Below are positions 12,513 to 34,007 of a stretch of 45,839 bases of DNA, one piece after another. The translations under genes were made by a program, and so were the position numbers. Under the pieces are notes generated by a model. That model ran no database searches and was not told the origin of the DNA. It saw nothing but the letters and a program-made list of their open reading frames with translations. The stretch's first letter is position 1, and every line of letters begins with the position of its first letter. Source of the DNA: Candidatus Palauibacter australiensis (GTDB lineage Bacteria; Gemmatimonadota; Gemmatimonadetes; Palauibacterales; Palauibacteraceae); assembly GCA_026705295.1 (NCBI GenBank), contig JAPPBA010000111.1, positions 1 to 45,839 of the forward strand, read 5' to 3'.

Positions 12513-12990
12513 CGCGGTCCCGGCCGCCCGCCGCGATGTCTGGCAGTCCCAGGGCGAGCCGGCAGCACAGCGATCCGCGGTCCGCCCCGCTCCGGAGTTC
12601 GGCCGGCGGCTTCCAGTCACACTCGGAATACTGGGTGACGCCGGGGACGGCCTGGGGCACGCGGGGTTCGCCCGCCACGATCCGGGCCGCGTGCAGGCGC
12701 ATCTCGAGCCGATAGCCCGGCCGGTCGAGGTGGCCCTCGCTCAGGCGGCCCAGATCCTCGGTCTCCACGCCGAGTTTCTCGCGGCCGATGCGCCGGACGA
12801 GAGCGTCGTCCGTCTCTCCGTCGGCAGGCGAACCCGCGGGGAGGCCCCACACGCCGGGCAGATCGGGATCGTCATCGGGGCGGCGCACGAGCAGCCAGCG
12901 GCGGGCCCCACCGGCCGACCCCGGATCCTCGATCACGAGGGCCATGGCCGGACGCGAAGGACGAGCGGCGGTGCCGCGGTCGCCCGTCAT
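12502..12990 (-). CDS. Nudix-domain protein with a degenerate Nudix box
   Basis: This 162-residue protein has the Nudix fold signature: WLLVRRPDDDPDLPGVWGLPAGSPADGETDDALVRRIGREKLGVE, seen in three consecutive pieces. Compared with the canonical GX5EX7REUXEEXGU box, the spacing and first Gly and Glu are kept, but REUXEE reads RIGREK, so one or two metal-binding glutamates are missing. Catalysis may be altered or lost. Its ATG overlaps the TGA of the upstream propeller hydrolase gene (ATGA at 12987-12990), so the two are translationally coupled. Known family members hydrolyse nucleoside diphosphates linked to X; no substrate can be assigned here. Confidence 0.8.
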   Translation of the reverse strand: MTGDRGTAARPSRPAMALVIEDPGSAGGARRWLLVRRPDDDPDLPGVWGLPAGSPADGETDDALVRRIGREKLGVETEDLGRLSEGHLDRPGYRLEMRLHAARIVAGEPRVPQAVPGVTQYSECDWKPPAELRSGADRGSLCCRLALGLPDIAAGGRDRVRA

Positions 12991-15494
12991 CGTGCGGCCA
13001 TCGCCTCCAGCCGCTCGCGCGCGGCGTCGAAGCGGCCCAGGAGATCGGGGATGTCCGTACCTCCGTAGCCCGCGCTCAACCTGAGGCGCGCCACGCCCAG
13101 AATGGCGAGGAGTTCGGCAACGGCCGCTCGGCGGGCGGCGGGGTCGGAACTGCCGACGCTTCCGATCCAGACGGGCGCGGTGTGCGCGAACGGGTAATTC
13201 GCCATCATCGGCCAGCGGGCGGCGCCGCCGACGGCGCGCGCGGCGACCCATCCCCCTTCCGGGAGCGTCAGGTCGCCCTCGAAGCGGCGCGAACCGGGGC
13301 CGTCGAGCCCCTCTTCGCTCCACGCCACCTCGCCGTTCACCAGCACCTCGACCCGATCCACTCCGGTGGCGGTCGCGACATCGAGCGACCACGAAACGTC
13401 TCCACCGGACACGACGAGGCCGGGACCCGCCCCGCCTACGCTGAACTCGAGGAACGGCCCGTTGGTCACGAAGGTTCGACCACTCCGGAGCGCATCCATG
13501 TAGGTCGACCAGTTCTCAACGGCTCCGGTCTGCGCGTACACGCGCGAGGTGCCGATGGCCATCGTGCGGTAGAAGTTGTTCATCACGTCCGTCCCGGCCG
13601 AGGGCACGATCGGGATGCCGGCGTTCAGCAGCAGGTGCCAGATCTGGGAAGTGAGGACCTCGTCGCTCCACAGGCAGACGATTTCGAGCGCGTCCAGATC
13701 TCCGAGCACGGCATCGGGGACGAGTTCGATCGGCACGACCCCGTAGAGGTCGGCGATCGATGCTTCGGCCCACGGCGTCGCGCGCGCCATGCCCCGGGTG
13801 CTCACGGGGTGCACATAGTACTGGAAACCTCCCTGAGCCCGCGCATGGCGCAGCGGCTCGGCGTTCGCGCGGTCGTCGGATCCGTAGACCTGGTAGCCCG
13901 GCCCCCACACCCAGGGCCAGAACAGGTCGTCGATCTCGATCAAGCCCAGGTGCCCCAGGAAGTGTGACCGCACCTCCTGCCCGAAGCGGATGAAGGGCGG
14001 GCCGCCCGCGTGTCGCCATCTCCACAGATCCTGATCCTCGAACCGGTTGTGGAGGTTTGCGAGGAGCGGGGTGGCGAAGTCCAGCGCCTCCCCCAGCATC
14101 ATCGGCGTCAGGTCGTCGGGAGAGAGGTCATACGGGCCGCCGTAGTTCAGGTGGAAATGATGTTCGCCCGAACTCCAGCCGCCGGCCCGGGCGTCCCAAA
14201 CGGGAGACAGCACGACTTCAACCTCGGCGACGCCGGACGCCTCTCCGAGTTGCAGCGTCGTCGCCGCCTCGGGCGTCGCGAGTCCCTGCACGGCCGCGAC
14301 CGTGACCTCGCCGACGGGCACGGTGACCTCGATGACGCCCGGCGAGTAGAAGAAGACGCGGCCGCCCTGCCCGTCGAAACGCGTCTGCGACGCCTCCGGG
14401 ACGGCCGGATGCCCGGCCCCGTCGACGACGGCGAGCCGTGCCGGAACCGGCGCCCCGCCTTCCTCGCGGACGGTCCGAATGCGGAGAGTCGCGGTCGACT
14501 CGCCCCAATCCCACGCCGTCACGGGCACTTCGCGGACCGGCCCGCCCGCGGCGCGCACCCGCCTGAGCTCCAACCGTTCCTGGTCGTCGGCCTCCGAGAA
14601 GTAGATCCATTCGCCCGAAGGATCCCATGCCGGCGTCAGCGGCAGCCCTCCCGACGCCAGCAGGATCGACGGTCCGGGGTCGGCCACGTTCAGGAGCCGG
14701 AGGTCCCACCCCTCCTGGGTCGGCCAGTTGACGGCCACGGTGGACCCATCGGGACTCAGCGCCGGCCGCGCCATGGACGCGATGTTCCCCTCGATGAGCG
14801 TGCGCGGCTCCGGCGAATCGTCGGCGCGCACGACGACGCGGTCGCGGCCGCCGCTCTTCCACAGGTAGACGAGCGCGCGTGCGCCGGGTTGGGGCTTCAG
14901 TTCGAGCCCGGGCGCGTCGGTCACCGGCCGCCGGACGCCGGTCTCGATGTCGACCGCCCACAGATCCAGGGCTCGCACCTCCGATTCGGCCGATGAGTAG
15001 AAGAGTTTCGTACCGTCGGCCGAGAAAGCGGGATCGAGTTCCAGTCCGGGACTGTCAACGCGGCCGAGTTCGGCTCCGCTGCTCGCGGCGACCCAGACGA
15101 TCTCCGTGTCTTCAGTATCGTCGCGTACGAACGCGACCAGTTGCCCGTCGGGGGACCAGGCGGGTCGCGCGTCGATCCCCCCGCCACGGGTCAGCCGCCG
15201 CGCCACGCCGCTCGCGAGGTCCATGACCCAGATCCACCCGCCCGAGGCGAACGCCACCCGCTCCCCGTCCGGCGACGGCGCCGGATCGATGGGTCCCGCC
15301 GTGAGCAGCGGAAGCTCGTAGCCTTCGAGGTACACGTGGTGGCCGTACCCCGCGACCTTCGGGTAGCGATTCGTCCACTGCGCGTTCACGCCCAGGGGCA
15401 ACAGCGCGAGTCCGAACACGACCGCGCCGACAGACAGGAACGACGGAACTCGGCGGGGCGAAACCGAGGATGGAGAAGTCGATTTCGATCGCAT
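12987..15494 (-). CDS. Exported beta-propeller plus CehA/McbA-type metallohydrolase
   Basis: This 835-residue protein starts with a long signal peptide (MRSKSTSPSS to LGVNAQ). Residues of roughly 60-340 form PD40/TolB-like blades (PSPDGERVAF, WSPDGQLVAF, LSPDGSTVAV). The middle has a beta-rich insert. The C-terminal half carries a PHP-like CehA/McbA hydrolase domain with WSSGEHHFHLNYGGPYDLSP, then YVHPV and IVPSAGTDVMNNFY, which supply likely metal-binding His and Asp residues. Proteins of this two-part type are common in environmental bacteria and are annotated as amidohydrolase-like, without a known substrate. It lies 124 bp downstream of the first LRR-protease and is coupled to the Nudix gene. 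Confidence 0.83.
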   Translation of the reverse strand: MRSKSTSPSSVSPRRVPSFLSVGAVVFGLALLPLGVNAQWTNRYPKVAGYGHHVYLEGYELPLLTAGPIDPAPSPDGERVAFASGGWIWVMDLASGVARRLTRGGGIDARPAWSPDGQLVAFVRDDTEDTEIVWVAASSGAELGRVDSPGLELDPAFSADGTKLFYSSAESEVRALDLWAVDIETGVRRPVTDAPGLELKPQPGARALVYLWKSGGRDRVVVRADDSPEPRTLIEGNIASMARPALSPDGSTVAVNWPTQEGWDLRLLNVADPGPSILLASGGLPLTPAWDPSGEWIYFSEADDQERLELRRVRAAGGPVREVPVTAWDWGESTATLRIRTVREEGGAPVPARLAVVDGAGHPAVPEASQTRFDGQGGRVFFYSPGVIEVTVPVGEVTVAAVQGLATPEAATTLQLGEASGVAEVEVVLSPVWDARAGGWSSGEHHFHLNYGGPYDLSPDDLTPMMLGEALDFATPLLANLHNRFEDQDLWRWRHAGGPPFIRFGQEVRSHFLGHLGLIEIDDLFWPWVWGPGYQVYGSDDRANAEPLRHARAQGGFQYYVHPVSTRGMARATPWAEASIADLYGVVPIELVPDAVLGDLDALEIVCLWSDEVLTSQIWHLLLNAGIPIVPSAGTDVMNNFYRTMAIGTSRVYAQTGAVENWSTYMDALRSGRTFVTNGPFLEFSVGGAGPGLVVSGGDVSWSLDVATATGVDRVEVLVNGEVAWSEEGLDGPGSRRFEGDLTLPEGGWVAARAVGGAARWPMMANYPFAHTAPVWIGSVGSSDPAARRAAVAELLAILGVARLRLSAGYGGTDIPDLLGRFDAARERLEAMAAR

Positions 15495-15544
15495 GCGCCC
15501 TCCCGTTCGTAATTCCCGCAGTTCCGCCCGCCCGGAGAGTGAGC

Positions 15545-15573
15545 GGTCCCCGACTCCGCGAGACGGGGGAACC
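15545..15573 (-). terminator. GC-rich hairpin downstream of LRR-metzincin copy 1
   Basis: GGTCCCCG (15545-15552) pairs with CGGGGG..ACC (15564-15573), with a small bulge and an 11-nt loop. It sits 46 bp after the stop at 15619 and before the start of the next gene at 15494. No T tract follows, so it is a candidate only. The remaining 15495-15618 sequence shows nothing else I can name. Confidence 0.3.
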
Positions 15574-15618
15574 CGCGGCCGAGCTGCCGATCGCCCGACC
15601 GCGCGGTTCAGCCCCGAA

Positions 15619-18600
15619 TCAGCGGCGCCAGGCCGACGCGCCGGGGAGCCCGCTGCTCACGAGTACTTGGAGCCCTGGCTCGGGAGCGAGATCCTCCGCC
15701 GCGCTCTGTGCCAGCGGACCGGAGGGCAGATCGCGGAAGATGGCGCGGACCTGGCCCGTACCCGGATCCCGCAAGATCGCCATCGGCGGTTCGCTCCCCT
15801 CGGCGATCTCGACGGTACCCCCCGGCCCGGCGAGGGAGAGACTCGTCAACGCCGTCTCCCACACCGGCTCCACGGGCAGCGCGAAGGTGAATCCGGACTC
15901 CCCGTCTCCGTCCCAGATCACTCCCATGTCAAAGCTGATGGAGAACAGTTCGCTGCCGTCGGCGCGCTCTCCGGTCAGCGTGTACGGCCCGGGCGCGTGC
16001 GGCAACACCGGACGCGCGTCGACGACGAAGGCGGGGTCGAGGTGGAGCGCACCGTCCGCGCCAGCCCCCCCGGATACGAGCAGCGTCCGGCTCGCGGCCG
16101 GCGCCTCCCACACCTCGAGCGTATCCTGCAGCCGGTAGCGCAGCGCGTTCGTGAAGTAGTAGTCGCTGACCCACGTCGGGTCGCAATACGACATGAAGTC
16201 CCGCACCGGGGAGCCTGGGTCGACCAGCGACCCGCCATCCCGCGAATCCCAGCCCCAGATGCCGATTCGCCCCCCGTCGTGGGGATAGCTCAGGTCCGGG
16301 CCGCCTTCGTTCCCCGAGCACAGCACGTGGAACAGGCTAAGGTTATGACCGAGTTCGTGGGCGAACGTCTCCGCGCTCAAAACCGAGATCGCGACTTTGC
16401 CGGAGTAGGGGATCTCGTTCGAGAAGAACGGGAAGGTCGCGCGACCCGCAATGTTACCCCCGATATCCGGGATCATACCCACCCAGTGTCCCACCCCATC
16501 CTCCATCACCCGAATCCTTCCGACATCGGCAATGAGGTCGCCGGAGTCGTTCGAATCGACCGTAACGCTCGGATGGCGTGTAAGCTCGATGTCCGCCACC
16601 GGGAGATACGTCCTCGTCTGCCAGAAGAAGTCGTCCTCAGGGTCGGCCGTACTCACGAACGTCGCGGCCTCGCGGTCGTTGTCCCCCGTCCAGACCATGG
16701 GGAGCAGGGTCAGAAGCAGCGGCGGCACGGCCTTCACATCCACCGCCATCCGTTCGCTCTCCGGGATGCGCCTCGACACGCCGAGGCTCGGATCGAGCGT
16801 CCCATCGGGGTCGATCTCCACAACCATTTCCAGTCCGGGCTGGATCACATCGGCGGAGATAACGGCGTGGGGCGAAAGATCCAGTTCTCCTTCCTGTACT
16901 TCCGTCGGGATCGCGGCTGAACCCGCCGGGATGTCCTCGACGTGCACCTCCGCACCGTCCACGAAGAAGGTGGCCCGGACGGGCGGGAGCATGGCCCCGG
17001 TCTCCTGTTCGGACATTACGAACACGCGCAGGAGCGCCTCTCTGCCGGCTACGAGCGGGACGGGGTAGTCGCGCGACTGCGCTGCCTGAATCAGGTAGGC
17101 ATCGGCATGGGCCTCCCCGCCGCATGTCCGGATCCTGTACTTCGGGAGCGCCGACTCCAGCCACGTGCGGAATGCGGGTGTCTGCGGCATGCACAACCCG
17201 GTGCCGGACGCAACCAGTTCAAAGAGTTCCTCGAGCTGCGTCATGCTCTCGGGCAAAGGACCCGACAGGTCAGGGTTGTCCTGGAACCAGAGAACCTCGA
17301 GCGCGCCGGCGTCGCCGAGTTCCGGCGGCAGTGCGCCCGACAGCATGTTGCCGTCCACTGCGATCACCTGGAGGCTATCGAGCTGGCCAAGTTCCCCGGG
17401 CAGCGGCCCTTCGATTTCATTGTCGGACAACTCCAGCAGCCACAGGCTGTCGATCTGGGCAATCGCCGGGGGAATGGGGCCCGACACGAGGCTCTGGTAG
17501 ACCTGGAGCATCTGAAGCTTCTCGAGCGCCCCAAGGCTTGCCGGAAGCGGACCATCGATCCTGGTGTCGGCGATCCTCAGCCGCCTCAGTTCGCTCAGGT
17601 TCCCGAACTCCTCGGGGATCGAGCCCTCGAACCGGGCCTCGTAGAGGTGGAGTATCCGGAGGCTCTCGAGGTTCCCGAACTCGGGCGGGATGGGGCCGCT
17701 CATCTGGTTGCCGCCCATCCAGAGCACTTCGAGGTTGACGAGCTTCCCGAACTCGGGCGGGATGCTGCCGTTGAAGTTGTTGCCGTCGATGTCCATCCGC
17801 CGCAGTTCGGTGAGCAGGCCGATTTCCGGCGGGATCTCGCCCTCGAGCCGGTTATAGTCCAGACGGAGCACCCGCAGGTACGGGAAGTACTGGATCTCGG
17901 GAGGAATCTCGCCCGAGAGGCCGTTGCGGTTCAGGTTGATCGTAGTGACCCGGCCGGCCGAATCGACTGCGATGCCGGACCAGTTCCCGAGCGGAGCGTC
18001 GGTCCCCCAGTTGCCTGACTCCGTCCAGTTCTCTCCTCCCATGGCCTCGTACAACTTCATCAGGTCCGACCGTTCCTCGTTGCAAGCGAGGAACTCGCCC
18101 TCGCGCGTGGGAACGGCGTTCAGCCACGCCTGGAAGCCCTCATCGCGAACGGTGCAGAGCATCGTGCCGCCGTAGTTGAGCGTCTGGATGCCCAGCGCCG
18201 ACAGGGAGAACGGGATGGGACCGGAGAGGTTGCCGTTCCCGCCCACCTCCACTTCGGTGAGGAAGGCCATGCTGCCGAGGTCGTCGGGAAGCTGACCGTT
18301 CAGGCCGTTCTCGCTCAGCTCGATCGCCGTCACACGGGATTGCTCGTTCGCCGTCACGCCGTACCAGCTCCCGACCGGCGCGTCGGTCCCCCAGCCGCCG
18401 TTGTTCGTCCACTCGCCCCCGCGCGTGCCGAGGTAGAGGTCCATGAGCGTCGCGCGATCCAGGCTGTGCACCGCGACCGGAGCGGAGTTCGAGACGGGGC
18501 CCGACGTGGCGGTCAGGCTCGCGTTGCCCTCCTTCAGGCCGGTCACGAGTCCGGTGGCGTCGACCGCCGCGACGGTCGGATCGCTGCTTGTCCACGTCAC

Positions 18601-18885
18601 CACCGCATCCGAGATGGGCTGCGCCCGGTCGTTCAGGACGCGCGCCCGCACCCGAACCGTGTCGCCCGCCACGACCGCGACCTCTTCCGGGTCCAGCGTG
18701 ATTCTCGCCGGCACGGTCGCGGTCGGAGGAGGCGGCGGCGGCCCGGGCGGCGGCCCCGAAGTCTCCCCTCCGCCACAGGAGAGAATGGCCAGACCGAGAA
18801 AGCCGAGCGCCGCGGAACGCCAGACACGGACGCGAGAGAAAGCTGAACCTTCGGAATCGGAGATCGTGCGGGTGCGCTTCGCCAT
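15619..18885 (-). CDS. Lipoprotein with Ig-like, leucine-rich-repeat and metzincin-like protease regions (copy 1)
   Basis: This 1,088-residue protein has, in order: a lipoprotein signal with lipobox LAILSC (Cys37); a proline-rich linker; a bacterial Ig-like domain (about 58-140, ARITLDPEEVAVVAGDTVRV); two LRR caps of the 'LYxxxGGxxWT..GWGTDAPxGxWxG' type; about ten plant-type LRRs (LxGxIPPEFGxLxxL) to about residue 560; a beta domain (YPVPLVAGREALLRVFV); and a protease region with HELGHNLSLFH (843-853) and the Met-turn segment DFMSYCD (Met898). HExxHxxxxxH plus a Met-turn is the metzincin zinc site; the usual Gly before the third His is absent. It should sit on the cell surface or in the periplasm. 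ATG at 18885 opens on the signal peptide. It is a tandem paralogue of 19048-22314. Confidence 0.86.
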   Translation of the reverse strand: MAKRTRTISDSEGSAFSRVRVWRSAALGFLGLAILSCGGGETSGPPPGPPPPPPTATVPARITLDPEEVAVVAGDTVRVRARVLNDRAQPISDAVVTWTSSDPTVAAVDATGLVTGLKEGNASLTATSGPVSNSAPVAVHSLDRATLMDLYLGTRGGEWTNNGGWGTDAPVGSWYGVTANEQSRVTAIELSENGLNGQLPDDLGSMAFLTEVEVGGNGNLSGPIPFSLSALGIQTLNYGGTMLCTVRDEGFQAWLNAVPTREGEFLACNEERSDLMKLYEAMGGENWTESGNWGTDAPLGNWSGIAVDSAGRVTTINLNRNGLSGEIPPEIQYFPYLRVLRLDYNRLEGEIPPEIGLLTELRRMDIDGNNFNGSIPPEFGKLVNLEVLWMGGNQMSGPIPPEFGNLESLRILHLYEARFEGSIPEEFGNLSELRRLRIADTRIDGPLPASLGALEKLQMLQVYQSLVSGPIPPAIAQIDSLWLLELSDNEIEGPLPGELGQLDSLQVIAVDGNMLSGALPPELGDAGALEVLWFQDNPDLSGPLPESMTQLEELFELVASGTGLCMPQTPAFRTWLESALPKYRIRTCGGEAHADAYLIQAAQSRDYPVPLVAGREALLRVFVMSEQETGAMLPPVRATFFVDGAEVHVEDIPAGSAAIPTEVQEGELDLSPHAVISADVIQPGLEMVVEIDPDGTLDPSLGVSRRIPESERMAVDVKAVPPLLLTLLPMVWTGDNDREAATFVSTADPEDDFFWQTRTYLPVADIELTRHPSVTVDSNDSGDLIADVGRIRVMEDGVGHWVGMIPDIGGNIAGRATFPFFSNEIPYSGKVAISVLSAETFAHELGHNLSLFHVLCSGNEGGPDLSYPHDGGRIGIWGWDSRDGGSLVDPGSPVRDFMSYCDPTWVSDYYFTNALRYRLQDTLEVWEAPAASRTLLVSGGAGADGALHLDPAFVVDARPVLPHAPGPYTLTGERADGSELFSISFDMGVIWDGDGESGFTFALPVEPVWETALTSLSLAGPGGTVEIAEGSEPPMAILRDPGTGQVRAIFRDLPSGPLAQSAAEDLAPEPGLQVLVSSGLPGASAWRR
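17603..18862. repeat. 1,260-bp direct repeat, copy 1
   Basis: Apparently identical base for base to 21032-22291 (offset 3,429 bp). It covers residues of about 8 to 428: lipoprotein signal, Ig-like domain, caps and the first half of the LRRs. Identity stops abruptly at both ends: mismatch at 17602 versus 21031 and at 18863 versus 22292. Comparison was by eye, line by line. Confidence 0.93.
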
Positions 18886-18990
18886 GGGTCTGCCTTGCGT
18901 CTTGGGGAGAAGCGGCGACGAACGGCGAAGGACTGCCGAATCGTTACCGCGCAACACCCCCGGTATCACTGAAAAGAGACCACCTCCCTA

Positions 18991-19042
18991 ACCTAGATAC
19001 GCGCCGCCGGGTTGGCATCCTCCAACGTGCCTGGAGGCTGTA
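18991..19042 (-). pseudogene. Short remnant of an S9 peptidase gene 3' end (relic 2)
   Basis: On the minus strand this reads H-V-G-G-C-Q-P-G-G-A-Y-L, matching the C-terminus KHLGGCQPRGASPD of the intact S9 gene at 22506. A shorter match to the preceding DMYGRLQ codons sits beside it after a deletion. It lies between the stop of LRR copy 2 and the start of copy 1, together with an otherwise featureless 105-bp leader. Confidence 0.65.
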
Positions 19043-19047
19043 CCCCG

Positions 19048-22000
19048 TCAGCGTCGCCAGGCCGACGCGTCCGGGAGTCCGCTGCTCACCATCACTTCGA
19101 GTCCCGGCTCCGGCGCGCGGGCACCCGCCGCGCTCTGGGCCAGCGGACCCGCCGGCAGGTCGGTGAAGATGGCCCGCACCTCGCCGGTCCGCGGATCGCG
19201 CAGGATCGCGACCGGAGGCTCGCTTCCCTCCGTCATCTCCACGCTGCCGCCCGGCCCGGAGAGCACGAGGCTCGCCATCTCCGTCGCCCAAGTCGGCTGC
19301 ACGGGCAGCGCGAACGAGAATCCGGACCGACCGTCGCCATCCCACACGCCGGCCATCGTGAAGCTGAGCGAGAAGAGTTCGCCGCCGTCCGCCCGGCGCC
19401 CGGTCAACCGCCACGGCCCGCCGGAGGTGGGCACGGCCGGCCGTGTGTCGACGACGAAGGCGGGATCGAGCCAGGGATCGCCGTCCGCCGTGACGCCGCC
19501 GGACACCACGAGCATCCGCGAGGCGGCCGGCGCATCCCGCCGAACGTCGGTCGTGTCCTGGAGACGGAAGCGCAGCGCGTTCGAGAAGTAGTAGTCGCTG
19601 ACCCACGACGGGTCGCAGTAGGTCATGAAGTCCCGGACCGTGGATGCGGGGTCCACGAGCGACCCGCCGTCGCGCGGATCCCAGCCCCAGACGCCGATCC
19701 CACCGTTCTCGTGCGGGAAGGTGAGGTCCGGACCTCCTTCGTCTCCCCTGCACGCCGCGTGCGACAGGCTGATGTTGTGCCCGAGTTCGTGCGCGATCGT
19801 CTCCGCGCTCAGTATCGAGACCGCAGTCTTCCCCAGGTGGGTAAGGCTGTCGGGCCCGAATGGCAGCCACGCGACGCCCGCGGCACCATCTGCGTCCGGG
19901 ATGAGCCCCATCCAGTGTCCGACTCCATCCTCCACCGTCCGGATGGTCACGACCCGGTCCAGGATCTCGAAGATGTCGTTCGTGTCGATCCTGACGCTCG
20001 CGTGCCGGATGATCTGTAGTTCCTCGACGGGGAGGTAATTGTTCGTCTGCCAGAAGATCTCGTCGTCCGGGTCGGCGTTGCTGACGAGCGTCACGGCACC
20101 CTGGTCGTTGTCGACGGTCGAGACGAACGGGATCAGGGTCAGGTACATCGGAGGCACGGCCTTCACATCAACGGCCGATTGCCCGGTCTCGGGGATGCGC
20201 TTCGACACGCCCAGGTTCGGGTCGAGCGTGCCATCGGGGTCCACCTCCACGACCATCTCCAACCCCGGCTGGATCACGTCGGCGGGGATGATGGCATGAG
20301 GCGAGAGGTCGAGTTCGCCCTCCTGCACCTCCGTCGGAATCGCCGCTGAACCGGCGGGGATGTCCTCCACGTGCACCTCCGCGCCGTCGAGGAAGAACGT
20401 GGCCCGGACGGGCGGGAGCAGCGCCCCGGTCTCCTGTTCGGATGTCACGAAGACGCGCAGGAGCACCTCCTCCCCGGCCACCAGCGGCACGGGATAGTCG
20501 CGCGACTGCACCGCCTGCGTCAGGTAGGCCTCGGCGTGGGCCTCGGCCCCGCAGGTCCGGATCCGGTACTTCGAGAGCGCGGACTCCAGCCACGTACGGA
20601 AGGCGGGAGTCTGCGGCATGCACAACCCGGTGTCCGCCGCCTGCAGCTCGAAGATCTCATCGAGCGCGGTCATGCTCTCCGGCACCGGGCCCGACAGGTC
20701 CGGGTTGCCATTGAGCCGTACGCTGTAGAGCCCGCTTGCGTCGCCAAGGTCGGCGGGCAGCGGTCCGGACAACCGGTTGTTCTGCGCCCAGAGAAAGCGG
20801 AGGCTGTCGGCCTGACCGAGTCCGGCAGGAAGCGGCCCCTCGATGTCGTTGTCGGAGACCCAGAGCGAGAACAGGCTGTCGAGTTGCCCAATCCACGAGG
20901 GGAGGGGTTCCGACAACTCGTTTTCGAAGAGGCGGATCGCACGGAGCCTCCCGAGCGCCGCCATGCTTTCGGGCAGTCCCCCGTCGATGTTCGTCTCCGT
21001 GATGCGGAGGATCTCCAGTTCGGTCAGCCTTCCGAACTCCTCGGGGATCGAGCCCTCGAACCGGGCCTCGTAGAGGTGGAGTATCCGGAGGCTCTCGAGG
21101 TTCCCGAACTCGGGCGGGATGGGGCCGCTCATCTGGTTGCCGCCCATCCAGAGCACTTCGAGGTTGACGAGCTTCCCGAACTCGGGCGGGATGCTGCCGT
21201 TGAAGTTGTTGCCGTCGATGTCCATCCGCCGCAGTTCGGTGAGCAGGCCGATTTCCGGCGGGATCTCGCCCTCGAGCCGGTTATAGTCCAGACGGAGCAC
21301 CCGCAGGTACGGGAAGTACTGGATCTCGGGAGGAATCTCGCCCGAGAGGCCGTTGCGGTTCAGGTTGATCGTAGTGACCCGGCCGGCCGAATCGACTGCG
21401 ATGCCGGACCAGTTCCCGAGCGGAGCGTCGGTCCCCCAGTTGCCTGACTCCGTCCAGTTCTCTCCTCCCATGGCCTCGTACAACTTCATCAGGTCCGACC
21501 GTTCCTCGTTGCAAGCGAGGAACTCGCCCTCGCGCGTGGGAACGGCGTTCAGCCACGCCTGGAAGCCCTCATCGCGAACGGTGCAGAGCATCGTGCCGCC
21601 GTAGTTGAGCGTCTGGATGCCCAGCGCCGACAGGGAGAACGGGATGGGACCGGAGAGGTTGCCGTTCCCGCCCACCTCCACTTCGGTGAGGAAGGCCATG
21701 CTGCCGAGGTCGTCGGGAAGCTGACCGTTCAGGCCGTTCTCGCTCAGCTCGATCGCCGTCACACGGGATTGCTCGTTCGCCGTCACGCCGTACCAGCTCC
21801 CGACCGGCGCGTCGGTCCCCCAGCCGCCGTTGTTCGTCCACTCGCCCCCGCGCGTGCCGAGGTAGAGGTCCATGAGCGTCGCGCGATCCAGGCTGTGCAC
21901 CGCGACCGGAGCGGAGTTCGAGACGGGGCCCGACGTGGCGGTCAGGCTCGCGTTGCCCTCCTTCAGGCCGGTCACGAGTCCGGTGGCGTCGACCGCCGCG

Positions 22001-22314
22001 ACGGTCGGATCGCTGCTTGTCCACGTCACCACCGCATCCGAGATGGGCTGCGCCCGGTCGTTCAGGACGCGCGCCCGCACCCGAACCGTGTCGCCCGCCA
22101 CGACCGCGACCTCTTCCGGGTCCAGCGTGATTCTCGCCGGCACGGTCGCGGTCGGAGGAGGCGGCGGCGGCCCGGGCGGCGGCCCCGAAGTCTCCCCTCC
22201 GCCACAGGAGAGAATGGCCAGACCGAGAAAGCCGAGCGCCGCGGAACGCCAGACACGGACGCGAGAGAAAGCTGAACCTTCGGAATCGGAGCTCGTGCGG
22301 TTGCGCGTCGCCAT
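19048..22314 (-). CDS. Lipoprotein with Ig-like, leucine-rich-repeat and metzincin-like protease regions (copy 2)
   Basis: Same length (1,088 residues) and domain order as copy 1 at 15619-18885: lipobox LAILSC, proline linker, Ig-like domain, LRR caps, plant-type LRRs, beta domain, protease region. The zinc motif is HELGHNISLSH (842-852), with Met-turn segment DFMTYCD. Residues after about 428 differ from copy 1. The last LRRs (for example LTELEILRITETNIDGGLPESM and SEPLPSWIGQLDSLFSLWVSDN) are largely replaced. The C-terminal protease half is a diverged but clearly homologous copy. The likely function is cell-surface proteolysis with target choice set by the LRRs (inference). ATG at 22314 lies about 150 bp after a promoter-like remnant at 22464-22491, which could drive it. 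Confidence 0.86.
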   Translation of the reverse strand: MATRNRTSSDSEGSAFSRVRVWRSAALGFLGLAILSCGGGETSGPPPGPPPPPPTATVPARITLDPEEVAVVAGDTVRVRARVLNDRAQPISDAVVTWTSSDPTVAAVDATGLVTGLKEGNASLTATSGPVSNSAPVAVHSLDRATLMDLYLGTRGGEWTNNGGWGTDAPVGSWYGVTANEQSRVTAIELSENGLNGQLPDDLGSMAFLTEVEVGGNGNLSGPIPFSLSALGIQTLNYGGTMLCTVRDEGFQAWLNAVPTREGEFLACNEERSDLMKLYEAMGGENWTESGNWGTDAPLGNWSGIAVDSAGRVTTINLNRNGLSGEIPPEIQYFPYLRVLRLDYNRLEGEIPPEIGLLTELRRMDIDGNNFNGSIPPEFGKLVNLEVLWMGGNQMSGPIPPEFGNLESLRILHLYEARFEGSIPEEFGRLTELEILRITETNIDGGLPESMAALGRLRAIRLFENELSEPLPSWIGQLDSLFSLWVSDNDIEGPLPAGLGQADSLRFLWAQNNRLSGPLPADLGDASGLYSVRLNGNPDLSGPVPESMTALDEIFELQAADTGLCMPQTPAFRTWLESALSKYRIRTCGAEAHAEAYLTQAVQSRDYPVPLVAGEEVLLRVFVTSEQETGALLPPVRATFFLDGAEVHVEDIPAGSAAIPTEVQEGELDLSPHAIIPADVIQPGLEMVVEVDPDGTLDPNLGVSKRIPETGQSAVDVKAVPPMYLTLIPFVSTVDNDQGAVTLVSNADPDDEIFWQTNNYLPVEELQIIRHASVRIDTNDIFEILDRVVTIRTVEDGVGHWMGLIPDADGAAGVAWLPFGPDSLTHLGKTAVSILSAETIAHELGHNISLSHAACRGDEGGPDLTFPHENGGIGVWGWDPRDGGSLVDPASTVRDFMTYCDPSWVSDYYFSNALRFRLQDTTDVRRDAPAASRMLVVSGGVTADGDPWLDPAFVVDTRPAVPTSGGPWRLTGRRADGGELFSLSFTMAGVWDGDGRSGFSFALPVQPTWATEMASLVLSGPGGSVEMTEGSEPPVAILRDPRTGEVRAIFTDLPAGPLAQSAAGARAPEPGLEVMVSSGLPDASAWRR
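21032..22291. repeat. 1,260-bp direct repeat, copy 2
   Basis: Partner of 17603-18862. Synonymous positions show no difference across the tract, whereas flanking coding sequence of the same two genes is clearly diverged. This indicates recent recombination or gene conversion rather than protein-level selection. Confidence 0.93.
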
Positions 22315-22354
22315 GGGTCTGCCTTGAGTCTTGGGGGGAAGGGCAACTGTTACA

Positions 22355-22463
22355 CTAATCTAGAGACGCGCCGTCGGCTTGGCATCCTCGAAAATGCTTG
22401 TCGAAAGATCCATGGAGCCGGCTGTACATATCAATCGAACCGGAGGGGTTTCGGAAGCCGTGG
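22355..22463 (-). pseudogene. Remnant of an S9 peptidase gene 3' end (relic 1)
   Basis: These 109 bp align without gaps to 22506-22614, the last 36 codons of the intact S9 gene, at about 80% identity by eye. They read HGFRNPSGSIDMYSRL followed by GCQADGASLD and the same TAG stop. Upstream, the match ends exactly where a promoter-like sequence begins, so most of an S9 gene copy has been deleted between its promoter and its tail. Confidence 0.8.
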
Positions 22464-22491
22464 AGTATTGCCCGGGGCGGTGGTCGGACAA
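22464..22491 (-). promoter_or_regulatory. Retained copy of the S9 peptidase promoter
   Basis: Minus-strand TTGTCC (22491-22486), 16 bp, then AATACT (22469-22464). The surrounding 30 bp (22465-22494) closely match 24533-24562, in front of the intact S9 gene. Outer ends GTATTG and CAATAC form an inverted repeat. It now points through relic 1 into LRR-metzincin copy 2. Confidence 0.55.
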
Positions 22492-22505
22492 TACCGGAGG
22501 TCACG

Positions 22506-24500
22506 CTAATCCGGAGACGCGCCGCGGGGTTGGCATCCTCCGAGGTGCTTGTCGAAAAAGGCCTGGAGCCGGCCGTACATGTCGATCGAATTGGCGGGGT
22601 CCCGGAAGCCGTGGCCCTCGGGGTACGTCTTCGATTCAAACTCCTTGCCGAGCGCCTCGAGCCGCTCGACCGCGAGTTCGAAATTCTCGAACGGCGCCCT
22701 TACGTCGAACTCTCCGTGCATGATGAGGACGGGCGCCGTGATGCGGTCCATCCGGTCGAGCGTCTCGCTCTTCGCGTAGATGTCGGGCCGCTCCTCCGGC
22801 GTCCCGCCGTGCCCCGTGATCGCGAAGATCTTCCCCACGCGGTCCGCGTGCGGCAGCGTCAGGGATTCGGAGTAGATGCCGCGCATGGGGACGGCCGCGT
22901 CGAACTTGTCGGGCGTGCGCGTGATCGCGGACATGGACTGCATGCCTCCGTAGCTCCCGCCGTAGATGCCGATGCGCCCGTTCACGTACGGCTGGCGGCG
23001 CAGCCAGTCCGCCGCGGCGCCCGGGTCCTTCGACTGGTCGTTCAGCCAGTCCTCCACCGACAGATCCTGAAACTCACGCCCGAAGCCGGACCCTCCGCGA
23101 TAGTTGATGGCGAGCACGACGAATCCCTCGTTCGCCAGGTACTGCTCCACGAGGTTCGTCCCCTGCGTGTAGGAGTTCGTTCCGCCGCCGTGTACCTGGA
23201 CGAGAGCCGGGCAGGCGGGCGGGTCGGAGCCGGCGGAGCGCGCGGCCCGGATCGCCGGCGGCAGGTAGAGGAATCCCTGGATGTACAAGCCGTCAAAGGA
23301 GCGGAAGGAGATCTCCGCAGGCCGCTGGACGCCCTCGAAGTGCGGCGAGAAGTCCGTCAGGCGAACCGGGGTGCCGCCCCCGAGGTCGAGGAACCAGGCT
23401 TCCCTGCCCTCCGTCGCCGCATCGCGCGTGAACGCGGCGCGGCGGCCGTCCGGCGTCGCGTGCAGGGATGACCAGGATCCGCCGACGTTCGTGACGCGCG
23501 TGGCGACGCCGCCCGACGCGGGGACGGACCACAAGTCGAAGGCCCCGCGCTGCTGGTACGGGAAGTAGATGCGCTCGCCGTCGCCGGACCAGAAGGGGTC
23601 GAAGCGCATGATCGCGTCGGTCGCGTAGACCTGCATGTCGAGCGGCGCTTCCCGGAGGGCGCGCGGAGCGGCGCCGGTGAAGTCGAGGTCGATCCGGTAC
23701 AGGTAGGCGAGGTCCTGATACCAGTACTCGTCCTTGGCCGTCCCCATCAGCACGAGGGTCGATCCGTCCGGCGACCAGACGGGGCTGGATGAGGCCATGA
23801 GCAAAGTGGAGACCCGGTGGGTCTCGCCGGACGCCACGGCGACGAGCCACACGTCGTCGTGCCACCAGTCGGCCCGGTTCGAGATGTAGGCGATCCACCG
23901 GCCGTCCGGCGACCACATGGGGCTGAAGCGGCTGTCCTCGGCCTCCGCCGCGCCGGCCGTCAGCTGCCGGGGCGGCGCCGCCCCGGCGGCGTCCACGAGC
24001 CAGATGTCCTGGGAACCGGACCCCGTGGAGTAGTACGCCAAGGTCTCCCCATCCGGCGACCACGACGGGGCCCGCAGGCCGCTCGCGCCCTCCACCACCA
24101 CCCGGCCCGGCTCTCCGGTGGCGGCGACAAGGAGGTCTCCTCCGGCGATGAAGGCCAGCCGCTCTCCGTCCGGCGACCACGTCTGCGCCCGGCCGGCGAC
24201 CCGGAAGGTCGAGGCGTCTCCCCCGGCGGCCACCACCTCCGCCGGCGCCGGAATCGGGACAAGGTGAACACCGGATCCGCTGCCGCCCCCGGCGGGTCCG
24301 GCCACGGCGAGCATGGACCCGTCGGGCGAGAGCACCGCCCGCCCCGCGCCCCCTCCGGCGGTGAAGACGTTCTCCAGCGTGAGCGGGATCCGGCCCGCTT
24401 CGTCGACGCCGCGGCTGGAGGACGAGCAACCGGCAGCGAGGAGCCCCATGACCGCGGGCAGGAGGTAGCGCGTTCGGACGGTTCGCGGGGATCGAGGCAC
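22506..24500 (-). CDS. S9-family peptidase lipoprotein (prolyl oligopeptidase-like) A
   Basis: This 664-residue exopeptidase candidate has a lipoprotein signal (VPRSPRTVRTRYLLPAVMGLLAAGC). The beta-propeller (about 60-400) has WSPDG repeats. The alpha/beta-hydrolase domain has Ser516 in IYGGSYGGM, Asp599 in HGEFDVRAP and His630 in EGHGFRDP as the catalytic triad. Such enzymes cleave short peptides after they enter the propeller funnel, here in the periplasm. GTG at 24500 is chosen because GGAGGAGGAG lies just upstream and it opens on the signal. A diverged paralogue is at 32003-33958, and two 3'-end relics lie at 22355 and 18991. Confidence 0.93.
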   Translation of the reverse strand: MPRSPRTVRTRYLLPAVMGLLAAGCSSSSRGVDEAGRIPLTLENVFTAGGGAGRAVLSPDGSMLAVAGPAGGGSGSGVHLVPIPAPAEVVAAGGDASTFRVAGRAQTWSPDGERLAFIAGGDLLVAATGEPGRVVVEGASGLRAPSWSPDGETLAYYSTGSGSQDIWLVDAAGAAPPRQLTAGAAEAEDSRFSPMWSPDGRWIAYISNRADWWHDDVWLVAVASGETHRVSTLLMASSSPVWSPDGSTLVLMGTAKDEYWYQDLAYLYRIDLDFTGAAPRALREAPLDMQVYATDAIMRFDPFWSGDGERIYFPYQQRGAFDLWSVPASGGVATRVTNVGGSWSSLHATPDGRRAAFTRDAATEGREAWFLDLGGGTPVRLTDFSPHFEGVQRPAEISFRSFDGLYIQGFLYLPPAIRAARSAGSDPPACPALVQVHGGGTNSYTQGTNLVEQYLANEGFVVLAINYRGGSGFGREFQDLSVEDWLNDQSKDPGAAADWLRRQPYVNGRIGIYGGSYGGMQSMSAITRTPDKFDAAVPMRGIYSESLTLPHADRVGKIFAITGHGGTPEERPDIYAKSETLDRMDRITAPVLIMHGEFDVRAPFENFELAVERLEALGKEFESKTYPEGHGFRDPANSIDMYGRLQAFFDKHLGGCQPRGASPD

Positions 24501-24531
24501 GGCTCCTCCTCCTTTGGGCTGGTGTGGTGTG

Positions 24532-24559
24532 AGTATTGCCCCGGGCGATGGTCCGACAA
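24532..24559 (-). promoter_or_regulatory. Promoter of S9 peptidase A
   Basis: Minus-strand TTGTCG (24559-24554), 16 bp, then AATACT (24537-24532), about 30 nt upstream of the GTG at 24500. Support comes from conservation of this 30-bp block at 22465-22494 while other relic sequence has decayed. The outer GTATTG/CAATAC inverted repeat could also be an operator. Confidence 0.55.
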
Positions 24560-24609
24560 TACCGATCAGAGAAGGAAAAACCCATTCCGCGACCGGAGGG
24601 CGAAGCGCC

Positions 24610-25227
24610 TTGACCGAACCTGCCGTCACGCTGACCGACTACGGGCTCACCCTGCTCTGCGCCTTTCTGGTCTGGCGCGCTCGCTCGCACGTGCGGGCCG
24701 ACCTGCGCCCGTGGGCGATGGGGCTCTTCGCCGGCTCCGGCGCCGCGGCCCTCTTCGGCGGCACGGTGCATGGCTTCTTCGGGGACGCCGCGACCCTCGG
24801 ATACCGCGTCCTGTGGCCGGCCACGATCCTCACGGTCGGCGCGACCGGGCTCGCGGCCTGGGGACTGGGCGCCCGCGTCGGTGGCCAGGCGACAGGTGCA
24901 CGGTGGGTCACGCGAATCGCGGGGCTCGCGTACGTCGCCTACGTCGCCGTCGTGCTGGCCGGGTGGCAGGCGTTCGCCGTCGCGGTCGCCTTCTATCTGC
25001 CCGCCGTCATCTATCTCACGGTGCGCTTCGCGCTCGCCTATCGCCGCCGGCCCACCGCGAGCCGGCGGCGGGCGCTGATCGGCTTCGGGCTCACCTTCGC
25101 GGCGGCCGCCATCCAGCAACTGCAGATCCCGATCCACCCGGTGTGGTTCGACCACAACGCGCTGTACCACGTCGTGCAGGCGGCGGCGTTCGTCCTGCTC
25201 TTTCTGGGCGTGAGCGGCGAAGAGTAA
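24610..25227 (+). CDS. Seven-helix-type membrane protein of unknown function
   Basis: This 205-residue protein is almost entirely hydrophobic, with about seven segments. Histidines sit near membrane borders: LFGGTVHGFFG in the second or third helix, and PVWFDHNALYHVVQAAAF before the last helix. That arrangement recalls the CREST superfamily (alkaline ceramidases, PAQR receptors), membrane hydrolases with His/Asp metal sites; this is a resemblance, not an identification. TTG at 24610 is preceded by GGAGGG (24595-24600). An in-frame ATG at 24514 would run through the S9 promoter on the other strand, so I rejected it. The gene is followed 29 bp later by an S9 peptidase gene. Confidence 0.78.
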   Translation: MTEPAVTLTDYGLTLLCAFLVWRARSHVRADLRPWAMGLFAGSGAAALFGGTVHGFFGDAATLGYRVLWPATILTVGATGLAAWGLGARVGGQATGARWVTRIAGLAYVAYVAVVLAGWQAFAVAVAFYLPAVIYLTVRFALAYRRRPTASRRRALIGFGLTFAAAAIQQLQIPIHPVWFDHNALYHVVQAAAFVLLFLGVSGEE

Positions 25228-25256
25228 CGATGCTTCTCCAACGTCAGGGGTGTGCC

Positions 25257-27308
25257 ATGCGTGCCGCGATCTTCCCCACCTCCCGGGTCCTCGCCGCGGG
25301 GTCCGTCCTCTCCGTCATCCTCTCCGTTGCCCTCTCCACCGGATTGGACGCCCAGGAGGGCCGGCCGATGACGGTCGAGGATGTCCTCGCCCTCAGGAGC
25401 CTCTCGCAGATCTCCGTGAGTCCGGACGGACGGTGGGTGGCCTACGTCGTCACGGAACGGGACATGGAGGAGGACCGCCAGGAGACCGACGTGTGGGTCG
25501 TGCCCACGGCGGGAGGCCCGGCCGCTGCCCGCCAGCTCACGTTCCGTCCCGGTTCCGACGATGCGCCGGTCTGGCACCCGTCGGGGGAATGGCTCGCCTT
25601 CTCCTCGGACCGGGAGGGCGTCAGGCAGGTCTACGGTATCCGGCCCGACGGTGGCGAGGCGTGGCAGGTGACGTCCCACGAGACCTCGGTCGGCGGCTTC
25701 CGCTTCGCGCCCAATGGCCGGCGGCTCGGTTTCGTGGCGAGCCCGCCCGCGACGGAGGCGGACCGCGAACTCGAGGAGGTGCGCGGGCGCCCGATGGTGT
25801 GGGATTCGGTCTACACGGACCAGTGGTCGCGCCTCCACGTCGCCGAACTCGAGGACGACGTGGCCGCCGAGGGCGTGAGATGGTCGCCGGACGGTCTCCA
25901 CGTGGTGTCTTTCGTATGGTCCCCGGATTCGCGAGCCGTGGCCTTCGGCGCGCGGTCGTCGCCGGTGCTGAGGACGACGTACTACGGTGCGACGTACGTG
26001 CAGGAGGGGGCGTCAGCGGAGGCCCGGAGCGTCACGTCGATGCCGGGCGGGGAGAATCCGGTGGCGTGGGACGATGCGTCGGGCCTCGTCGTGTCCGGAA
26101 CGGGGCAACTGCTCGGGACCTTCAATCGACAACTCTGGCGGGTGCCGTTCGACGAGGCCGGCGCCGCGCTGGAGCCCGTGTCGCTCACGGCCGGTCTGGA
26201 CGCGAACGCGAACCTCGTCCACATCGATGGTGCGCAGCTCATCGTCTCGGCGGCCCGACGCACGGGAGCCGCCGTGTACCGGATTCCGCTCGCCAACGGC
26301 GACGCCACAGGTCCTCCGGGCGATCTGGCTGACGGCCCGCATTACTACTCCGGCGCCTCCGCGTCGGCGGACGGGCGCTGGCTCGCGTTCACCGCCGAGG
26401 ACGGCATGGCGCCGCCGGACCTCTTCATCACTCCGATGGATTCCTTTCGCCCCGAGCGCCTGACCGACCTGAATCCGCAGGTGGCCGACCTCGCGCTCGG
26501 CGAACAGCGGGTCGAGTCGTGGCCTTCGCGCGCCGGAGGCGAGGACATCGAAGGCGTTCTCACCCTTCCCGTCGGGTACGAGGAGGGGGACCGCGTCCCG
26601 ATGGTCCTCGTGATCCACGGGGGGCCGTCCGGCATCTCATCCGACCGCTTCAACGCGACGCGTGGCGCTTACCCGGTACAGGTCTACGCGGGCATGGGCT
26701 TCGCCGTCCTGCAGCCGAACTACCGGGGGTCGAGCGGCTACGGGGAGCGCTTTCGCGGTCTCAACCGCGGCGACATCTCCGGCCGGGATTGGGTCGACAT
26801 CGACTCCGGCGTGGACGCCATGGTCGAGCGCGGGATCGCGGATCCCGACCGGCTCGCCGTGAGCGGATGGAGCTTCGGAGGGCACCACACCTATTGGGGC
26901 ATCACGCAGACCGACCGCTTCAGGGCTGCGAGCGCGGGCGCCGGCGCGAACGACCTCATCTCCATGTATTCCCAGACGGACATCCCCGAGTTCTACCACA
27001 CCTACCTGGGCCCGAAGCCGTGGGAGGACTGGGACTTGTACGAGGAGCGCTCCGCCTACCGTCATGTTGAAAACGTGACGACACCGCTCCTGATCCAGGT
27101 GGGTGAGAGGGACGAGAGGGTACCGGCGGAACAGAGCATCCAGTTCTTCGAGGCCGTCCGCGCCATCGGTAAAGCGCCGACGACGCTCGTCCTTTATCCG
27201 GATCAACCACATGGGGTTAGATCTCCGCGTCTCCAGCGCGATCTCATGTCGAGAAACGTGGAATGGCTCAGGCGGTGGGTCCTGGAGCCGGAGGCGCTGG
27301 TTCCGTAG
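25257..27308 (+). CDS. S9-family peptidase (prolyl oligopeptidase-like) B, exported
   Basis: This 683-residue protein has a cleavable signal peptide (MRAAIFPTSR to STGLDAQ) rather than a lipobox. The propeller half shows SPDGRWVAYVV, WHPSGEWLAFSSD and WSPDSRAVAF blades. The hydrolase half has the oxyanion HGGPSG and the triad Ser539 (SGWSFGGH), Asp619 (GERDERVP) and His652 (DQPHGV). It is closer to acylaminoacyl/dipeptidyl-peptidase-like S9 enzymes than to the two lipoprotein S9s in this window. ATG at 25257 starts the signal; ATG at 25230 adds nine residues. The same frame stays open for 1.4 kb upstream, antisense to S9 gene A, which is a high-GC artefact. Confidence 0.92.
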   Translation: MRAAIFPTSRVLAAGSVLSVILSVALSTGLDAQEGRPMTVEDVLALRSLSQISVSPDGRWVAYVVTERDMEEDRQETDVWVVPTAGGPAAARQLTFRPGSDDAPVWHPSGEWLAFSSDREGVRQVYGIRPDGGEAWQVTSHETSVGGFRFAPNGRRLGFVASPPATEADRELEEVRGRPMVWDSVYTDQWSRLHVAELEDDVAAEGVRWSPDGLHVVSFVWSPDSRAVAFGARSSPVLRTTYYGATYVQEGASAEARSVTSMPGGENPVAWDDASGLVVSGTGQLLGTFNRQLWRVPFDEAGAALEPVSLTAGLDANANLVHIDGAQLIVSAARRTGAAVYRIPLANGDATGPPGDLADGPHYYSGASASADGRWLAFTAEDGMAPPDLFITPMDSFRPERLTDLNPQVADLALGEQRVESWPSRAGGEDIEGVLTLPVGYEEGDRVPMVLVIHGGPSGISSDRFNATRGAYPVQVYAGMGFAVLQPNYRGSSGYGERFRGLNRGDISGRDWVDIDSGVDAMVERGIADPDRLAVSGWSFGGHHTYWGITQTDRFRAASAGAGANDLISMYSQTDIPEFYHTYLGPKPWEDWDLYEERSAYRHVENVTTPLLIQVGERDERVPAEQSIQFFEAVRAIGKAPTTLVLYPDQPHGVRSPRLQRDLMSRNVEWLRRWVLEPEALVP

Positions 27309-32002: not shown

Positions 32003-33958
32003 TCAGCCCGAGACGCAGCCGCCGAGGTGCCGGTTGAAGAACGCCTCCAGGCGCGACCAGGTGTCGACGCGATTGTCCGGGTTCCGGAAGCCGTGCGCTT
32101 CGTCCGGGTACGTCTTCACCTCAAGGCTCTTGCGGAGCCGCTCGAACTCGGCCACGGCGTTCTCGAAGTTCTGGATCGGCACGCGGCGGTCGAGTTCCCC
32201 GTGCATGAGAAGGACCGGTGCCGTGATGTCGGCGATGCGCGACACGACGTTGCTCTTGGCGTAGGTATCGGGACGCTCCTCCGGCGTGCCGCCGTGTCCC
32301 GTGACCGAGAAGATCTTCCCCAGCCGATCCGTGTACTCGAGCGTGTTCAGCTTCGAGTAGGCGCCCCGCATGGGGACGGCCGCGTCGAACTTCTCCGGGG
32401 TGAGACTGATCGCCGACAGCGACATGCTCCCGCCATAGCTGCCGCCGTAGATCCCCACCTTCCCGTTCACATGGGGAAGCTTGCGCAGAAAATCGGCCGC
32501 CGCGCCCGCATCGCGCGCCTGGTCCCACAGCCAGTCCTCGACGGACAGATCCTGGAACTCGCGCCCAAAGCCCGAACCGCCACGGTAGTTGATCGCAAGG
32601 ACCACGAACCCCTTCGAGGCGAGGTACTGTTCGGTGAGGTTCAAGCCCCTCTGGTAGGAGTTCGTCCCGCCCCCGTGGACCTGGACGAGCGCCGGGCAGG
32701 CGGCCCCTGCCGCCCGTTGCGGCGGGTCGTAGAGGAAGCCCTGGATGCGGAGTCCGTCGAAGCTCGGGAAGGCGATTTCGCGGGGCGCGGCGACGGACCG
32801 CCAGGACGGTGAGAACGAGGTGAGCCGCTCCGGGACGCCACCGAGGAGGTCGAGAGCGTACGCTTCTCCTCCGCGCGTCGGCGACGAGCGGACGAAGGCG
32901 AGGATCCCGGCGCCCGGCGTGTGGCTGACGCTCGAGATCGTCCCCTCCATGTGGGTGACGCGCGTGGCCACGCCGCCGGCGGCCGGCACCGCCCACACGT
33001 TGACCGTGCCGCGTTCGAGGTAGGGGAAGTGGATGAACGCGCCATCCGCCGACCACGACGGGGCGTGCCGCATCGCCGCATCCGTCGCGTAGACCTGCAT
33101 GTCCACGATGCGCTCCGACGCCCCGTCGCCCACCTCCAGGTCTTCGATCACGTAGATGTAGGAGAGATCCTCGTACCAGTATTCGTCCTTCGCCGTGCCG
33201 AACACGGCGATCCGGTCCCCCTCCGGCGACCACACGGGGGTGGACATCGCCATCAGCGTGCGGGTGAGCTGCCGGCGATCTCCGGTCTCGACGTCGACGA
33301 GCCAGAGGTCGTCGTGCCAGTAGTCGGAGGCGTTCGACACGTACAGGATCTCGCGGCCGCCCGGTCGCCAGGCGGGCGCGAAACGCGGATCGTCGAGGGC
33401 CATGACGGCCTCGGTCAACTGGCGCGGGGGAGTCGAGCCGTCGGCCGGCACGAGCCAGATATCCTGGTGGCCGCTCGCGGTCGAGTAGAACGCGATCGTC
33501 CGCCCGTCCGGAGAGAAGGCCGGCGCCCGGACACCCTCCATGCGGTCCATCAGCGGGCGCGCTTCGACATCGCCGACGTCGGCGACGTGGACCTGGCCGC
33601 CGGTCGCAAACGCGATCCGGTCGCCGCCCGGGGCCCAAGCCGGATTCGAGCCCGGAAGCCAGAAGCGCGGCGTCCCGAAGCCACCTCCCTCGCCGCGCGC
33701 CGCGACATACAGCCCCGAACCGTCCGGCCCCGAGCCGGAGATCGCGAGGTGACGGCCGTCCGGCGAGATCGAGACGCCCCGCACGCCCGTGTTGTGGCGG
33801 TGGATGTTGTCGAGCGTGAGGTCGAGTGCCGCCGCCGAGCCCCCGCCGGGAGCCGAATCTCCGGGCGCCCCGCACGCGACCGAGAGCAGGAGCGAGAAGG
33901 CTGCCGTCGCGTGGAAGCGGCGACGCGGGGCGCGGGACCGGCTGTGTGGGCGGCGCAT
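32003..33958 (-). CDS. S9-family peptidase lipoprotein C
   Basis: This 651-residue paralogue of the S9 gene at 22506 has a lipobox (FSLLLSVAC). WSPEGDRIAVFGTAKDEYWYEDL is near-identical in pattern to the other copy, as are the block LTEQYLASKGFVVLAINYRG and the triad residues Ser507 (IYGGSYGGS), Asp in HGELDRRVP and His in DEAHGFRNP. It would act on peptides in the periplasm. ATG at 33958 has CGGAGG upstream. It begins 49 bp after the beta-barrel gene on the same strand and probably closes the M14-metzincin-barrel-S9 operon. Confidence 0.92.
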   Translation of the reverse strand: MRRPHSRSRAPRRRFHATAAFSLLLSVACGAPGDSAPGGGSAAALDLTLDNIHRHNTGVRGVSISPDGRHLAISGSGPDGSGLYVAARGEGGGFGTPRFWLPGSNPAWAPGGDRIAFATGGQVHVADVGDVEARPLMDRMEGVRAPAFSPDGRTIAFYSTASGHQDIWLVPADGSTPPRQLTEAVMALDDPRFAPAWRPGGREILYVSNASDYWHDDLWLVDVETGDRRQLTRTLMAMSTPVWSPEGDRIAVFGTAKDEYWYEDLSYIYVIEDLEVGDGASERIVDMQVYATDAAMRHAPSWSADGAFIHFPYLERGTVNVWAVPAAGGVATRVTHMEGTISSVSHTPGAGILAFVRSSPTRGGEAYALDLLGGVPERLTSFSPSWRSVAAPREIAFPSFDGLRIQGFLYDPPQRAAGAACPALVQVHGGGTNSYQRGLNLTEQYLASKGFVVLAINYRGGSGFGREFQDLSVEDWLWDQARDAGAAADFLRKLPHVNGKVGIYGGSYGGSMSLSAISLTPEKFDAAVPMRGAYSKLNTLEYTDRLGKIFSVTGHGGTPEERPDTYAKSNVVSRIADITAPVLLMHGELDRRVPIQNFENAVAEFERLRKSLEVKTYPDEAHGFRNPDNRVDTWSRLEAFFNRHLGGCVSG

Positions 33959-34007
33959 CCGAGCCTCCGGGACCTGTGGGGCAAGCGAAGCTAGCGTGGT
34001 GTTGACA

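Follow-up and report, generated by a model that had tools for sequence, protein, structure and literature searches.

In the genome of Candidatus Palauibacter australiensis, two tandem LRR-metzincin genes (LRR1 and LRR2) are located downstream of an intact S9 peptidase gene, and a short piece of the S9 3' end precedes each of them. How did these two pieces, here called relic 1 and relic 2, come to be placed there? The original prediction was that a unit consisting of an S9 gene and an LRR-metzincin gene had been duplicated, and that the extra S9 copies had then been largely deleted. Our analysis points to a different history, in which the relics are probably the scars of two separate rearrangements in the S9-LRR-metzincin gene row.

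The stretch of DNA analysed (45,839 nt, hereafter the window) is contig C111 of a 3.58-Mb genome consisting of 188 contigs. On the minus strand, the features are arranged in the order S9, relic 1, LRR1, relic 2, LRR2, followed by a PD40-containing gene, and a DUF6962 gene is located upstream of S9 in the opposite direction (Table 1). The likely S9 start is the GTG at 24500 behind AAAGGAGGAGG, and the mechanical open reading frame reaches 24629. Among named records, the S9 protein matched those of Candidatus Palauibacter rhopaloidicola (95% identity) and Ca. P. denitrificans (91% identity), both of which are MAGs. The parent gene is a clear member of the S9 prolyl oligopeptidase family (PF00326), and relic 1 corresponds to its C-terminal end; unlike members of this family, the relics contain no other part of the protein and cannot yield an enzyme. 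Against Pfam PF10462 (Peptidase_M66, cut-off 20.6), LRR2 scored 30.5 bits, while LRR1 scored 19.7 bits, just below the cut-off. The window also contains another S9 gene about 9 kb away (32009-33991), which shares 56% identity with the first and is found at a similar distance from it in several relatives.

Table 1. Features of the S9-LRR-metzincin locus, in minus-strand order
Feature	Position	Strand	Remarks
S9 promoter-like near-palindrome TATTGTCGGACCATCGCCCGGGGCAATACT	24532..24561	-	Upstream of S9; one of two matches in the genome
Intact S9 (prolyl oligopeptidase family)	22506..24500	-	Pfam PF00326, E 1.8e-38; likely start judged from the starts in relatives
Second copy of S9 promoter-like element	22464..22493	-	Directly in front of relic 1
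Relic 1, 3'-terminal 109 nt of an additional S9 copy	22355..22463	-	Frame and stop kept
LRR1, LRR-metzincin gene, type A 3' half	19048..22314	-	
Relic 2, S9 3' end	18988..19042 (core 18988-19033)	-	Common to window and G003
Duplicate of the long S9-LRR spacer, following relic 2	18886..18987	-	Alignment to the G009 spacer
LRR2, LRR-metzincin gene, type B 3' half	15619..18885	-	
PD40-containing gene	12987..15494	-	

When the S9 end (161 nt) was searched against the whole 3.58-Mb genome, it matched, in addition to the gene itself, relic 1 (E 2.8e-23), the 3' end of the paralogous S9 (32015-32145, E 1.9e-9), and relic 2 (E 1.8e-6). Beyond these, the next match had an E value of only 0.077, so neither relic is a chance similarity. 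Both similarities in the original prediction, a gap-free match of 80% between 22355-22463 and the last 109 nt of S9 and a shorter remnant of the same end at 18991-19042, were therefore borne out, with relic coordinates that were correct to a few bases. The repeat finder aligned 22349-22463 with 22500-22614 over 115 nt (80% identical, no gaps), and relic 1 was also recovered when the whole genome was searched with the S9 protein by tblastn (E 9.6e-8, 66% identity). In the S9 frame, relic 1 is translated as HGFRNPSGSIDMYSRLHGSFDKHFRGCQADGASLD, followed by the retained S9 stop.

Counted from codon CAC through the stop (108 nt), relic 1 differs from the window S9 at 21 positions, from the S9 of nine of the 11 relatives at 20-22 positions, and from that of G001 and G016 at 30-31 positions. 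No site is common to relic 1 and the window S9 alone. Since relic 1 is not specially close to the window S9, these counts do not show that the present S9 was duplicated recently. The tree of the 108-nt tails was without resolution, and a sister relationship of relic 1 and the window S9 was neither supported nor rejected (AU p 0.196). Thirteen of the 108 states of relic 1 are absent from 12 intact tails, each of which has 0-4 such states, and these private changes are distributed over the codon positions as 4/3/6. In addition, relic 1 alters six of the 22 residues that are invariant in intact tails (0-2 in the intact tails). Judged by these substitutions, constraint on relic 1 is relaxed relative to the intact S9 copies.

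The same changes bear on the proposal that the tail is a functional element, either an RNA leader or a coding tail, which is kept in front of the LRR genes. The intact frame and stop of relic 1 agree with this proposal; however, the private changes fall on all three codon positions, the invariant residues are broken, no Rfam match was found in 15400-25300, a 159-bp insert splits relic 2 in G003 (Candidatus Palauibacter rhopaloidicola), and most relatives have the S9 end itself only, which makes a kept function very improbable. The insert of G003 (L041:7374-7532) has inverted ends TGTCGTGTCCCGGAAATA with CTAG on both sides, and looks like a non-coding mobile element; three further full-length copies are present in G003 and two in the window's genome, in addition to fragments.

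Directly in front of relic 1, we identified a feature that was absent from the original prediction, namely a second copy of the near-palindrome upstream of S9. With up to three mismatches allowed, TATTGTCNGACCANCGCCCNGGGCAATACT occurs twice in the 3.58-Mb genome, once before S9 and once before relic 1, and the element before S9 is nearly invariant in the 11 relatives' sequences compared. A consensus scanner found no sigma-70-type promoter or terminator in 22300-22520 and 24480-24640, so the term promoter-like refers to position and conservation. The element before S9 (about 24531-24564) separates S9 from the divergent DUF6962 gene and could function as an operator or as a promoter in both directions. 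Homology of the fused copy begins at CGGT, and in several relatives these four letters also follow shortly after the S9 stop. When the fused piece was searched in the 17 congeneric genomes, element and tail were joined in the window only, and matched separately elsewhere. Novel states did not differ significantly in frequency between the fused element copy (1/34) and relic 1 (13/108; Fisher p 0.19), five variants standing for the 12 intact elements in this comparison, which thus does not show that the element copy has stayed under constraint.

Since the S9 promoter-like element is duplicated at the head of relic 1, this relic is best read as an extra S9 copy minus everything between the promoter and the last 109 nt, and a complete additional S9 gene was very probably its ancestor. 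The claim that extra S9 copies were deleted is thus supported for relic 1 by the fused element, but not for relic 2, which would need only a breakpoint inside the S9 3' end. The fused promoter-like element may now serve both LRR1 and LRR2.

According to the search for both relics in the 17 congeneric genomes, relic 1 is found in one genome (the window only) and relic 2 in two (the window and G003). G003 possesses both LRR genes and relic 2 without relic 1, in the order S9, 40-nt spacer, LRR1, relic 2, LRR2, and G014 possesses two LRR genes and neither relic. Relic 1 is also absent at the S9-LRR junction of nine loci (G001, G002, G003, G007, G009, G010, G011, G014, and G016), and in the DNA following S9 in G005 and G008, which lies at contig ends and, as judged by eye, reads into an LRR gene start. 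Since the relics differ in distribution, with G003 having relic 2 and not relic 1, they are independent and require at least two events. A single duplication of an S9 and LRR unit behind both relics is not supported by G003 and G014; in the former, both LRR genes are present and relic 1 is absent, a case that the original prediction itself counted as a refutation. Furthermore, relic 1 is placed between the intact S9 and LRR1, where duplication of an S9-LRR unit alone would leave no extra tail.

Over its 46-nt core (18988-19033), relic 2 matches the S9 end and relic 1 alike at 83% identity; by eye, it can be followed as far as 19042 if two short deletions inside it are allowed for. Relic 2 begins about 5 nt behind the stop codon of LRR1, and this junction is nearly identical in the window and G003. 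The spacer between relic 2 and LRR2 was aligned with the S9-LRR spacer of G009, in which 84 of 96 aligned positions are identical; the alignment score was 58.6, compared with a maximum of 20.3 in 500 shuffles. Beside relic 2 there is no promoter element and no other S9 sequence, and no trace of a full second S9 between the LRR genes was found in any relative compared. An origin from a breakpoint would fit relic 2 equally well or better than a complete gene copy. Loss of a full-length second S9 at this place is possible, and would need one extra event.

These results allow the original model to be weighed as a whole, in which a complete S9 and LRR-metzincin unit was duplicated and the extra S9 copies were then mostly deleted. 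It is favoured by relic 1, which indicates that a complete extra S9 with its promoter probably existed, by the S9-LRR spacer, which was duplicated along with the tail, and by G015, which has also lost its S9 body. In G015 (L045, about 10310-10600), S9 is deleted from just after the start to the last few bases, and the S9 promoter-like element and the last few S9 bases are kept directly before the LRR gene, showing that such deletions do occur here. This deletion is similar to relic 1, as the promoter-like element is kept, the body is gone, and an LRR gene stands behind; however, no intact S9 is left in G015, and the deletion endpoints differ. On the other hand, the distributions of the two relics differ, relic 2 is without the promoter element and follows the LRR1 stop closely, and relic 1 requires a further duplication of S9 only in any case. 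The two intact S9 copies that were to be looked for in relatives were encountered at one locus in none of the 17 genomes; one close S9 copy (>=74%) was found in 13 of them, one cut by a contig end, and none in the rest. Duplication of the whole unit is therefore unlikely.

Attachment sites at gene ends consist of direct repeats of the gene 3' end beside cargo. The direct repeats of the S9 3' end beside the LRR genes resemble such sites, so the tails might also be attachment or recombination sites of a cassette inserting LRR genes at the S9 3' end. However, the S9 promoter element forms part of the piece before LRR1, the tails have decayed and differ in length, relatives with a single LRR gene have no second tail, and no S9 tail was found behind LRR2. 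We consider a cassette hardly credible.

The LRR genes themselves were also compared. LRR1 and LRR2 share an identical run of 1260 nt on the 5' side, and the G003 pair shares one of 951 nt; the window and G003 differ by about 10% in that region. In the tree of LRR 5' regions, each pair groups by genome (support 100/100 and 100/99). The 14 genes in the tree of 3' regions fall into two clades, A and B, which do not follow species boundaries (support 100/100), and the pairs of the window and G003 are both A then B. In the LRR search, the best candidates of each genome, at most 12, were scored. Overall, the 5' halves of the LRR-metzincin genes are homogenised within each genome, and the 3' halves are of two trans-species types (window, L041, L043, and L049). 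At the same position, type A is found in G016 and type B in G001, two nearly collinear genomes that are 95.7% identical over 15.9 kb including the LRR gene. One in-frame stop (TAG) is present in the only LRR gene that G001 has at this locus (L049). Two histories would fit: an old A-B tandem that has been reduced to one gene in most lineages, or the joining of two allelic types in the ancestor of the window and G003.

Six other tandem LRR stretches and L047 were also scanned for tails of upstream genes, with two metzincin-motif ORFs required on the chosen strand. The two clean spacers of L071 are similar to each other over 157 nt at 79%, and contain no upstream-gene tail, and the one spacer of L047 gave no matches. 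No usable spacer was available in L072, in which the ORFs overlap, and no ORF pair was present in L073-L076.

The A and B types suggest another route to the same two scars, which is compatible with two separate rearrangements. Relic 1 would represent a G015-like S9-deletion allele that gained an intact S9 as its neighbour through recombination with another strain, and relic 2 would be the joint of an LRR-A and an LRR-B haplotype. Such a merger of haplotypes is conceivable, though we hold it to be rather doubtful. It agrees with the trans-species clades and the shared A-then-B order of the window and G003, with the occurrence of A and B at the same place in G016 and G001, with the existence of a G015-type deletion allele, and with the fact that relic 1 is not specially close to the window S9. 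However, an ancestral A-B tandem followed by loss of one gene per lineage gives the same pattern, and the flanks that distinguish the two amount to a few bases. The detail that the LRR end of an A haplotype was joined to the S9 end of a B haplotype, resulting in the A-B tandem, is likewise only tentatively proposed. In such a merger, the joining of the S9-deleted allele to an intact S9 would have left the S9 promoter standing a second time directly before the LRR pair.

According to the explanation we prefer, that of two separate rearrangements, the first event would have made tandem a segment reaching from the last ~50 nt of S9, via the S9-LRR spacer, to just behind the LRR end, giving S9-LRR1-(S9 tail-spacer)-LRR2. 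The tail in relic 2 would then be the duplication breakpoint, and a full second S9 would never have been required there, although a full S9 between the LRR genes that was later deleted could give the same relic 2. In the second event, S9 and its promoter would have been tandemly duplicated, with the junction at CGGT, letters that closely follow S9 in relatives and also closely precede the promoter element; the S9 copy adjoining LRR1 would then have lost all between the promoter and the last 109 nt. The sequence matches, the fused element, and the distribution among the relatives are observed; the order of these steps and the breakpoint mechanism are what we infer, as is any use of the promoter. 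Several points count against this explanation: the junction microhomology is short and read by eye, relic 1 is no closer to the window S9 than to most others, the tail tree has no resolution, the consensus scanner saw no promoter, and the named genomes are metagenome assemblies.

Bacterial genomes contain tandem-duplication remnants and truncated pseudogenes. As in such remnants, a partial copy in direct orientation is found beside its parent gene, with relaxed constraint and sharp junctions. Both relics are ordinary duplication scars and show no difference in kind, but the promoter-plus-tail structure of relic 1 is unusually legible.

A literature search on Palauibacter, gene remnants, and LRR proteins of sponge Gemmatimonadota found no paper on this locus, which does not prove that none exists. 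PMC10469786, as far as its text was accessible, contains one passage with a species list and no mention of leucine-rich, metalloprotease, peptidase, duplication, or eukaryotic-like.

For this sponge-associated genus, the scars let the growth of a surface-protease locus be read from sequence alone: the LRR pair would have formed through a breakpoint within the gene upstream, which would separately have been copied and gutted, its promoter staying where it was. The wider locus is more interesting than the relics, as the A and B protease halves differ between near-identical genomes, whereas the 5' halves are homogenised.
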